A stretch of DNA of 49,572 nucleotides from Verrucomicrobiota bacterium. Lineage in GTDB: Bacteria; Verrucomicrobiota; Verrucomicrobiia; Limisphaerales; UBA9464. The notes beneath the pieces are model-generated. The model was not told the DNA's origin, made no database searches, and saw only the letters and a list, made by a program, of their open reading frames with translations. The DNA lies in NCBI GenBank assembly GCA_008933025.1, contig WBXI01000007.1, positions 1-49,572 of the forward strand, written 5' to 3'. Of this stretch, positions 43,790-46,097 are shown piece by piece (the first letter of the stretch is position 1; the number at the start of each line of letters is the position of its first letter). The translations under genes were made by a program, and so were the position numbers.

Positions 43790-44953
43790 ATGCCCTTGAG
43801 CCGAAGGAAAGCATTGGTGTCCACCTCCACCCTCGTCGGCGCCGCGTTCCTGTTGCCGGCGAAGGCCCAATCACCCGCCGCGCGTTCACCCGGCACGGCC
43901 ACCCCTCCCCTCGCGGACCTCGTCAGCGTGTCCGACTTCGAACCGCTCGCCGAAGAACGGCTCTCCGAGGTTTCGCGCGCCCTCGTCAAGGGCGGCGCGG
44001 CCGACGAACTCACCGTCCGCTGGAACCGCGAGGCCTTCGACCAGATCCGCCTTCGCCCGCGCGTGTTGGTCGACGTCTCGAGGATCGACACGGGCCTCAC
44101 GTTGCTCGGCCAACGACTGCCATTCCCCATCCTCCTCGCGCCGACGGCGTACCACGCCATGGTCCACCCCGGCGGCGAGGCCGAGACGGCGCGCGGCGCC
44201 GGGAAGGCCGGGGCCCTGTGGGTCGTGAGCAGCGCCACCAACACCCGCCTCGATGCCATCGCCCGGGCCGCCACCGGGCCGCTGTGGTTCCAGTTGTACG
44301 TGCAGTCGGACCGCCGCTTCGTCACCGACGTCGTCCACGAGGCCGAGGCCGCGGGTTGCCGGGCGCTGGTGGTCACGGTGGACGCGCCGGTGGTGGGCCC
44401 GCGCTACCGCCAGATGCGCGCCAAGTTCAAACTCTCCCCCGGTCTCTCGCTCCCGTACATGGACGACGTCAACAAGGGACGCGACTCGCTGCTGCGGGGC
44501 GGCAACACCCGGATGACGTGGGCGGAGATCGAATGGCTCCAATCGGTGACCCGACTGCCGGTGCTCCTCAAAGGCATCCTGAATCCCGACGACGCCGAGC
44601 GCGCGGTGGCGTCGCGGGTGGCGGGCATCATCGTGTCGAACCACGGCGGCAGGATGCTCGACACCGCGCCGGCGACCATCGCGGCGCTGCCGGCGGTGAC
44701 GGAACGCGTCGCCGGCCGCATCCCGGTGCTGGTCGACGGCGGCGTGCGACGCGGCACCGACATTCTCAAGGCGCTGGCCTTCGGGGCGAACGCGGTGTTG
44801 ATCGGTCGCCCCTACCTGCACGGACTCGCCGCGGCCGGTGCCGACGGCGTGGCCCGGGTGGTGGCGTTGTTGCGCGACGAACTCGAGCAGGCCATGGCCC
44901 TGACCGGCCGACCGACCCTTGCCGACATCGATCGATCCGTCATTTGGGGTTGA
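43790..44953 (+). CDS. Exported FMN-dependent alpha-hydroxy-acid oxidoreductase (lactate/glycolate oxidase family)
   Basis: A 387-residue FMN enzyme oxidising 2-hydroxy acids such as L-lactate, glycolate or mandelate. Seen: FPILLAPTAYHAMVHPGGE, VSSATNT, FQLYVQSDRR, VTVDAPVVGPRYRQMR, LKGILNPDDAERA, IIVSNHGGRMLD with the catalytic His and the Arg, LVDGGVRRGTDILKALAFGANAVLIGRP. Odd: the N-terminus MPLSRRKALVSTSTLVGAAFLLPAKAQ is a Tat-like signal, so it is likely exported already folded with FMN. Ends just before a terminator that serves the opposite strand. ATG at 43790. Confidence 0.93.
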   Translation: MPLSRRKALVSTSTLVGAAFLLPAKAQSPAARSPGTATPPLADLVSVSDFEPLAEERLSEVSRALVKGGAADELTVRWNREAFDQIRLRPRVLVDVSRIDTGLTLLGQRLPFPILLAPTAYHAMVHPGGEAETARGAGKAGALWVVSSATNTRLDAIARAATGPLWFQLYVQSDRRFVTDVVHEAEAAGCRALVVTVDAPVVGPRYRQMRAKFKLSPGLSLPYMDDVNKGRDSLLRGGNTRMTWAEIEWLQSVTRLPVLLKGILNPDDAERAVASRVAGIIVSNHGGRMLDTAPATIAALPAVTERVAGRIPVLVDGGVRRGTDILKALAFGANAVLIGRPYLHGLAAAGADGVARVVALLRDELEQAMALTGRPTLADIDRSVIWG

Positions 44954-44966
44954 ACCCGGTCGGGGC

Positions 44967-45000
44967 AAAAAAAAAGAGGGCCTGGACACTGCCCAGGCCC
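44967..45000 (-). terminator. Rho-independent terminator of the lysine-rich miniprotein gene
   Basis: On the minus strand GGGCCTGGG (45000-44992) pairs with the CCAGGCCC that ends at 44978, followed by a T-rich run (44976-44967, nine T's). The stem is GC-rich and the loop about six bases. It serves the 41-codon gene ending at 45050. On the plus strand the same hairpin follows the FMN oxidase but has its A-run in front, so it is directional. Confidence 0.85.
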
Positions 45001-45049
45001 CGATGGTCGGCACTCGGGGAAACGAATCCCCGATCGCGCCGGAGAACGG

Positions 45050-45175
45050 CTACTTCTTCTTGCCGGCAGCCTGCTTGCTGGCCACCGCGGCCGTCTTCTT
45101 GGTCGCCGCGCTGCTGGCCTTGGCCTGCTTCTGCGTGGACTTCTTCTGGTTGGATTTCGGGGATTTGTCGCCCAT
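45050..45175 (-). CDS. 41-residue lysine-rich conserved miniprotein (MGDKSPKSN type)
   Basis: A short gene: MGDKSPKSNQKKSTQKQAKA at the N-terminus, then SSAATKKTAAVASKQAAGKK and a final Lys. About a third of the residues are Lys and the rest mostly Ser, Ala, Gln and Thr, with no Cys or aromatic residues. It has its own strong intrinsic terminator and stands apart from its neighbours. I recall almost identical proteins being annotated across Verrucomicrobia, which suggests selection, but no function is known to me. The composition resembles histone H1-like tails, so binding of DNA or RNA is a reasonable guess only. ATG at 45175. Confidence 0.8.
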   Translation of the reverse strand: MGDKSPKSNQKKSTQKQAKASSAATKKTAAVASKQAAGKKK

Positions 45176-45330
45176 AGGTCGTGTAATGGTAGTTCGAATT
45201 GACGTGCCCGCGGCATGGAAGTTTCCCCGCGGACTTCGTCACGATGCCCGGGCGCGCGCCGAATGTAAACCCCGCAGCCACCCGCGACCGGCACGGCCAA
45301 GCGGGCGGACGGGATCTCCCGACCACCGTC

Positions 45331-45618
45331 CTATCCCTTCAGGATGCCGTCGAATTCCGCGTCGGTATAAGCCGGCACGGTCTCGGTGCGGACATTTCCC
45401 TGCGCACCGAGATCGGCGAGGAGACGGAGCACCTTGGCCTCGGAGTCGGATTCGAGGATGAGCACGCCGTCGTTGGCACCGAGGGTCCAATACTGGCCCT
45501 CGATGGTGACGCCGGCCTTGGCGGCCGCCTTGGCGAACGCGTGGGCGCGACGGGTCGACTTGGTGATCTGGGCGGCACCCTGCGGGGTGAACTTGAGGAG
45601 GGACAGATAGCGGGCCAT
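45331..45618 (-). CDS. GYD-domain protein
   Basis: A 95-residue protein of the GYD family, small dimeric alpha/beta-barrel-like proteins of unknown biochemical role. Seen: YLSLLKFTPQGAAQITKSTRRAHAF, GVTIEGQYWTLGANDGVLILES, LADLGAQGNVRTETVPAYTDAEF. A clear ribosome binding site (AAGGA, about six bases before the ATG at 45618) and a -10-like CATAAT on the minus strand nearby support this start. Likely cytoplasmic. It lies 155 bases upstream of the miniprotein gene, same strand. Confidence 0.9.
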   Translation of the reverse strand: MARYLSLLKFTPQGAAQITKSTRRAHAFAKAAAKAGVTIEGQYWTLGANDGVLILESDSEAKVLRLLADLGAQGNVRTETVPAYTDAEFDGILKG

Positions 45619-45840
45619 GGGATTCCTTGTGTGGATTATGAAGAACGGCGCGGGTAGATCCCGCACCGTGTGGACGCTGCCCCGGGACTTGCCCCGAGAC
45701 TCGCCGGGCTTTGGCCAACGCCGACCGTCGTTTGCCGTTCCCGCGGCCATCCGGCGCCTCTGCAAACCGCCCCCGGACGCAAGGTCGCCCCCCGGACAAC
45801 CACGCCTTCGCACCATGGTCGTCTCCGGTTTCGAAAGCCG

Positions 45841-45893
45841 TGTCGCGGCCTTCCGAAGGCCTTGCCACCGCAGTCCGAAGGCGCTTCGCGCGG
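45841..45893. repeat. 53-bp direct repeat, copy 1
   Basis: Starts tgtcgcggcc and ends ttcgcgcgg. It is identical to copy 2 (46021-46073) except at two positions. It contains the near-palindrome ggccttc-c-gaaggcc. Confidence 0.9.
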
Positions 45894-45930
45894 GAGACAG
45901 GTCGCGGCGGTTCCCCGCGCGGAGCGCCGT

Positions 45931-45968: not shown

Positions 45969-46020
45969 GCTTTGCGACCAGACCCAACCAACCCCTCGGT
46001 TGGACACGGTCTCACGGCGG

Positions 46021-46073
46021 TGTCGCGGCCTTCCGAAGGCCTTGCCACCGCAGTCCGAAAGCGCTCCGCGCGG
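46021..46073. repeat. 53-bp direct repeat, copy 2
   Basis: Second copy, exactly 180 bases after the first, 51 of 53 positions identical. The sequence after it diverges from that after copy 1. Confidence 0.9.
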
Positions 46074-46097
46074 CAGGCACGGCGCCGGGTGCAAAGG

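Follow-up and report, generated by a model that had tools for sequence, protein, structure and literature searches.

Among the small proteins associated with the ribosome, bTHX and SRA (bS22) are of about the size considered here. The chlamydial histone H1-like protein Hc2 binds DNA and varies by lysine-rich pentamers (PMC2848022). The cis-regulatory leaders collected in Rfam provide a further point of comparison at the RNA level. The locus described here lies in the window, by which we mean the whole stretch of 49,572 nucleotides analysed, and comprises the following features, all on the minus strand.

45264..45269 (-), −35-like hexamer TTTACA, at a fixed distance before the hairpin across loci
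45241..45246 (-), −10-like hexamer CATCGT of putative function, 17 nt after the −35-like hexamer
45199..45236 (-), 5' hairpin GUCCGCGG-GGAAACUUCCAUG-CCGCGGGC, from covariation and a match to RNA profile R2 (E 1.3e-8)
45050..45175 (-), gene for a 41-residue lysine-rich protein with a conserved N-terminus MGD[KR]SPK, from the list of open reading frames and homologues
45027..45045 (-), weaker second hairpin between stop codon and terminator, from the terminator scan
44967..45001 (-), intrinsic terminator with an 11-pair stem and a T run, from the terminator scan

We favour, with moderate confidence, a reading of these features as a self-contained cassette for cationic, putatively nucleic-acid-binding (RNA or DNA) peptides, in which the 5' hairpin sets the amount of product. 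Such a free-standing and possibly strongly expressed unit of about 270 nt would consist of a promoter, the 5' RNA hairpin, a lysine-rich protein of 40–47 residues and an intrinsic terminator. The cationic peptide would lack a stable tertiary fold and rely largely on its charge to bind RNA or DNA. The hairpin would adjust the amount of this single product by acting on mRNA stability or translation, or through feedback from the peptide.

The lysine-rich protein and its relatives

The open reading frame runs from the ATG at 45175 to the stop codon ending at 45050 and encodes 41 residues (MGDKSPKSNQKKSTQKQAKASSAATKKTAAVASKQAAGKKK), as the sequence-only reading had described for a very short gene; the lysine richness noted there is also present, although the fraction of about one third was slightly generous (12 of 41 residues, 29%). 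The protein has a computed pI of 10.7 and a net charge of about +10.5, and across 108 distinct proteins the net charge ranges from +6.5 to +11.5, with Cys, Trp and Tyr absent from all. AlphaFold predicts a single helix for residues 6–37 (mean pLDDT 77, pTM 0.38), a model that speaks neither for nor against binding and decides nothing. The view that the protein belongs to no known family held throughout Pfam, NCBIfam and the PDB: the window protein and four orthologues had no Pfam or NCBIfam match above the cut-offs (a sub-threshold match to DUF4810 had an E-value of 0.29), and the protein profile A2 found 0 matches among PDB sequences at E up to 1. A mobile origin of the gene was dropped as a candidate, tblastn having given no match in phages or plasmids. 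Among titles and the openings of abstracts, nothing was found on such a gene in the phylum, and the string MGDKSPK occurred in none of the papers searched.

The near-identical verrucomicrobial proteins mentioned in the sequence-only reading are borne out up to 85% identity, BLAST returning homologues in 37 of 58 relatives (own genome counted) at E up to 10, of which 35 lay below 0.005. A search for homologues across genomes, which had been proposed as a check, likewise confirmed that the protein is conserved: profile A2 at E up to 0.01 detected proteins of nearly equal length, spread over 36 family labels, in 143 of the order's 320 genomes (80 of 154 good-quality genomes and 60 of 118 genera). 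Because of these near-equal-length homologues, and because the third codon position is the most variable, the frame is more than a chance occurrence and, on this comparative evidence, is a real, conserved gene of Verrucomicrobia; genes so short are easily missed by annotation. Since 177 of the 320 genomes, including 74 of the 154 with good quality, are without a match at E 0.01, the gene is, as far as the profile can tell, either dispensable or diverged beyond its reach. In wider searches, the protein was found in 53 of 286 genomes sampled across the class (A2, E up to 0.001) and, with a single sequence as query, in 13 of 387 genomes of the phylum (E up to 0.01). The named collection contains 196 stretches encoding a relative; among the best 80 of these 196, which include the complete genome of IMCC26134, most are titled Verrucomicrobia or subgroups thereof, and four are titled otherwise (Phycisphaerales L103, Bacteriovoracaceae L107, Deltaproteobacteria L118 and Armatimonadota L138). 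Contamination alone is an unlikely source of the odd-titled loci, because further genomes around two of them also encode the protein (4 of 15 in the order around L118 and 5 of 55 around L107, centre included); in 11 such loci, inspected by eye, no 5' leader was seen.

Synonymous and non-synonymous change, whose comparison had also been suggested, was evaluated in 108 distinct coding sequences. Over all equal-length pairs, which are not independent and have synonymous sites near saturation, pN/pS was 0.387 for 56 proteins of 41 residues and 0.242 for 25 of 47 residues, with corresponding values of 0.232 and 0.144 for residues 2–18; single close pairs ranged from 0 to about 0.95. The entropies at the three codon positions were 0.43, 0.28 and 1.03 in codons 1–17, and the pattern was weaker in the C-terminal half (0.85, 0.93 and 1.29). 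By these measures, the coding sequence is under selection. The conserved part comprises MGD[KR]SPK and the following QK, while the remainder varies and keeps its high content of Lys, Ala, Gln and Ser. The N-terminal identity arises partly by construction, given that 80 loci were chosen by patterns including MGD[KR]SPK[SAD][NV] and that the scripts kept only reading frames beginning that way; the BLAST set is free of the pattern choice, but not of the reading-frame filter.

Within the window, a GYD-domain protein is encoded upstream of the gene (45331-45618, minus strand), two near-identical intergenic stretches noticed by eye (tcgcggccttccgaaggccttgccaccgcagtccga..., 45840-45900 and 46020-46080) lie beyond it, and a gene for an FMN-dependent dehydrogenase (43859-44953, plus strand) ends towards the terminator. 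Genes for RRM proteins, DEAD-box helicases and J-domain proteins are absent from the window region; across 107 regions (1.03 Mb), these were encoded in 15, nine and 17, respectively, and in the 40 regions from G-labelled genomes in two, two and six. These neighbours are therefore tied to particular lineages, a point against the cassette reading. RRM proteins are present in 58 of 58 relatives, with one to six in each, a density from which we estimate about half an RRM match per 1.03 Mb. In all 17 regions that encode the J-domain protein (DnaJ and DnaJ_C domains), its gene shares the strand of the MGDKSPK gene and lies either upstream or downstream of it. The differing orientations of the neighbours suggest more than one event, with the proviso that many of the loci are related and that the counts ignore kinship.

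Some lineages have RRM and DEAD-box genes close by, and the product is short and basic, shares its size with bTHX and SRA and has its own transcription unit with a structured leader. These features would also be compatible with a lineage-specific ribosomal or ribosome-associated small protein, the leader serving as an autoregulatory site as in ribosomal-protein operons. We consider this rather unlikely: about half of the order's genomes lack the gene, and no PDB chain resembles the protein, although the PDB may lack a verrucomicrobial ribosome. Moreover, in a genome consisting of one contig, where rRNA genes are expected (G197), the leader profile R2 has a single match at E up to 0.1, located at the gene, which argues against plain mimicry of rRNA.

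Promoter-like sequence, 5' hairpin and terminator

The most telling part of the locus, missed in the earlier reading, is the conserved putative promoter together with the 5' hairpin. The latter has the form GGRGAAAC...CAUNCCG and also appears when the whole transcript is folded. The pattern GGRGAAA...A[TA]NCCG is found 48–60 nt before the ATG in 71 of 108 distinct loci (one with 2 nt upstream), and R2, an RNA profile built from sequences including the window's own copy, detects it at the expected position in 11 of the remaining 37 (nine with E below 0.01, two with 0.02 and 0.05). In an alignment of 69 distinct rows, 86.1% of the stem cells are paired versus 80.4% in shuffles (0 of 500), slid versions being 41–53% paired, and two-sided changes occupy 39 cells versus 20.9 in shuffles (0 of 500). 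Three pairs show a two-sided change, a number that shuffles reach as well (295 of 500), and 29 of the 69 rows lack pairing at 7-28. Judged by its covarying pairs, which are stronger evidence than folding, the 5' hairpin is a structured RNA element. Of 71 leaders, 54 contain the core stem in their minimum-energy fold and 17 fold otherwise; RNAalifold kept three CGG/CCG pairs alone for the 50 leaders of short proteins (−1.07 kcal/mol) and a fuller stem for the 21 leaders of long proteins (−10.1). Rfam gave 0 matches at gathering score in the whole window, and a permissive search of 44950-45320 returned six matches, all far below their cut-offs, including Ms_AS-4 (17.3 bits versus 50), which overlaps the leader. 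In the libraries searched, the protein is without a family and the hairpin without an Rfam entry.

Hairpin and gene are linked across genomes. At E up to 0.001, R2 matched 118 of the 320 genomes of the order, 112 of which also encode the protein (143 of 320 overall); four of the six hairpin-only genomes have chance-like matches (one in recN), and the other two (G628 and G636) carry the H1-like version described below alone. A coding stretch of recN, confirmed by NCBIfam, mimics the leader hairpin (L260, L264, L265 and L268), with R2 E-values down to 4e-7, and is responsible for the R2 matches of two of the 112 genomes (G052 and G462); because one recN match reaches E 4e-7, the R2 E-values are optimistic. 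The exact leader pattern is present in 17 of 58 relatives at 19 places, of which 17 precede the gene, one precedes a frameshifted duplicate (G055, L060) and one has no recognizable gene copy and looks like chance (G029, L061). The duplicate (G055:C21:9104-9282) is a second copy of leader and gene that is apparently decaying. Sixteen class-wide R2 matches were read: nine stand before an MGD[KR]SPK frame, one before an H1-like frame (L214) and two before nothing related, and in four the search pattern did not recover the motif. Within the order, 26 R2 matches without an adjoining protein comprise 16 H1-like cassettes, four matches in recN, four other chance-like ones, one copy cut by a contig end (G681) and one masked copy (G679). 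A role of the leader as the mark of a regulon was rejected, since outside this gene family only chance-like copies were found.

Two further interpretations of the leader were set aside. Pairing of GGRGAAAC with the 3' UTR showed a small excess (best 8-mer pairing, average of 6.38 versus 5.71 shuffled) and was dropped; several orthologues carry GUCUCCUC, a poor fit to such pairing. An upstream open reading frame was rejected on the free third base of AUN (U 30, G 26, C 11 and A 4; n = 71), and is also undercut by the variable distance to the ATG, 48 to 60 nt. Inside the hairpin, GGRG, 8 nt and AUN imitate a ribosome-binding site followed by AUG, AUU, AUC or AUA.

Upstream of the hairpin, TTTAC stands 40–44 nt ahead of GGRG in 42 of the 50 short-protein loci with a hairpin, at exactly 41 nt in 33, which is also the distance in the window. 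When these 42 loci are aligned on TTTAC, the second base of the −10-like hexamer is A in 37 and the sixth is T in 37; long-protein (Opitutaceae-like) loci have T[CT]GC[CT]A 42–43 nt before GGRG in 15 of 21. A scan of the window for the TTGACA/TATAAT consensus did not report the promoter-like TTTACA-N17-CANNNT. As the promoter-like hexamers keep a fixed distance from the hairpin, transcription probably begins at the hairpin foot. An inverted repeat at this presumed start, which would covary as DNA too, could instead act at the DNA level, as the operator of a transcription factor. This is improbable, considering that conservation is strongest (GGRGAAAC and AUNCCG) in the inner letters, where the repeat is not symmetric, as in the loop of an RNA, and that the copies found outside the gene family are of the chance-like kind.

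At the 3' end of the proposed cassette, the claim of the clearest intrinsic terminator in the window proved accurate. The stem (45001-44977) has 11 pairs, eight of them G-C, with a loop of 3 and the tail CTTTTTTTTT, and represents the G+C-rich stem followed by a T run by which such terminators are recognized. A simple scan of the whole window gave 29 terminator-like sites (8, 11 and 10 by part, versus 6.5, 12.0 and 12.4 in shuffles), among which that of the gene has the most pairs (11; next best 9) and the longest T run; the count being close to shuffles, it is the gene's terminator that stands out and not the number of sites. Among orthologous loci, 37 of 107 have a terminator-like site (4.45 in shuffles) and 67 of 107 a hairpin of at least 8 pairs after the stop codon (10.1 in shuffles). 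A particular 3' hairpin, GUCUCUCC...GGAGAGAC, matched as GTCTCTCC-N(6-16)-GGAGAGAC, is found once each in six of the 58 relatives, under four family labels, in all cases directly behind an MGDKSPK-type gene and nowhere else in the 58; a looser form is present in 24 of 108 loci. These gene-specific 3' hairpins, the length of about 270 nt with hairpins at both ends and a whole-transcript fold z of −2.79 would suit a small regulatory RNA with the peptide as a secondary product, but this is at best a faint prospect in view of the codon-position pattern, the low pN/pS in the N-terminal half and a 3' hairpin sequence that differs in the window's own terminator and in many orthologues.

A second peptide between the same ends

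The cassette reading draws further on one genus (label g33), in which 16 additional R2 matches precede reading frames of 20–35 residues with 40–55% Lys, such as MATKKAKKPAAKKPAAKKKK. These H1-like cassettes have TTTAC at the promoter place in 15 of 16 cases, and a loose search pattern detects a terminator-like hairpin in all 16; 11 of the 16 stretches also carry an MGDKSPK gene in the same orientation, 0.7–2.9 kb away, and one leader (L254) has a core C-G pair replaced by U-A. We interpret these copies as cassettes that were duplicated and in which the peptide was then replaced or drifted strongly. The peptide sequence has changed between RNA ends that persist, and the charge persists with them. 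That the same ends flank the H1-like peptide is the best evidence that charge would be what matters in function and that the ends are an integral part of the cassette. Often close behind either cassette is a reading frame of about 70–85 residues (MKLxQGQVWK...YIRIVxLERLxVxYK...SKKDFCRLLKxAxLL; L002:1717-1941, L109:3220-3438 and many of L244–L263), which had no Pfam or NCBIfam match above cut-off.

A nucleic-acid-binding role of the peptides is plausible, and gains support because one genus carries an H1-like Lys/Ala peptide in the same cassette and because RRM and DEAD-box genes adjoin the gene in some lineages; the composition of the second peptide would point to DNA as the partner, and the neighbours to RNA. 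A more ambitious version, possible but doubtful, is a portable, self-controlled module for 'mini-histone' peptides, in which the peptide would bind its own leader and keep its level constant, and the insert (MGDKSPK or H1 type) could be duplicated or exchanged. If true, this would be a bacterial nucleic-acid packaging system built from peptides of 20–47 residues.

Comparison with known systems

Size and basic charge are shared with bTHX and SRA (bS22), from which the window protein differs in that its profile, A2, matches no PDB chain at E up to 1. The likeness to Hc2 (HC2, PF07382) lies in a Lys/Ala-rich, cationic sequence of low complexity, and the second, H1-like peptide type resembles a short piece of Hc2; the lengths differ, with 165–237 residues in Hc2 and 20–47 here. 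HC2 gave no match to the window protein or four orthologues, and among four H1-like peptides L248 alone was matched, far below the curated cut-off (E 0.18, 12.3 bits versus 40). With the Rfam cis-regulatory leaders, the cassette shares a covarying hairpin at the mRNA 5' end, present once per gene, and it differs from them in that no Rfam family reaches its gathering score anywhere in the window. Both small cationic proteins and mRNA leaders are kinds already known; to these, the comparison adds a coding gene, a putative promoter, an RNA element absent from Rfam and what appears to be a duplicated cassette with an exchanged peptide, and makes it possible to test directly whether such mini-peptides package or chaperone nucleic acid while the leader senses their level.
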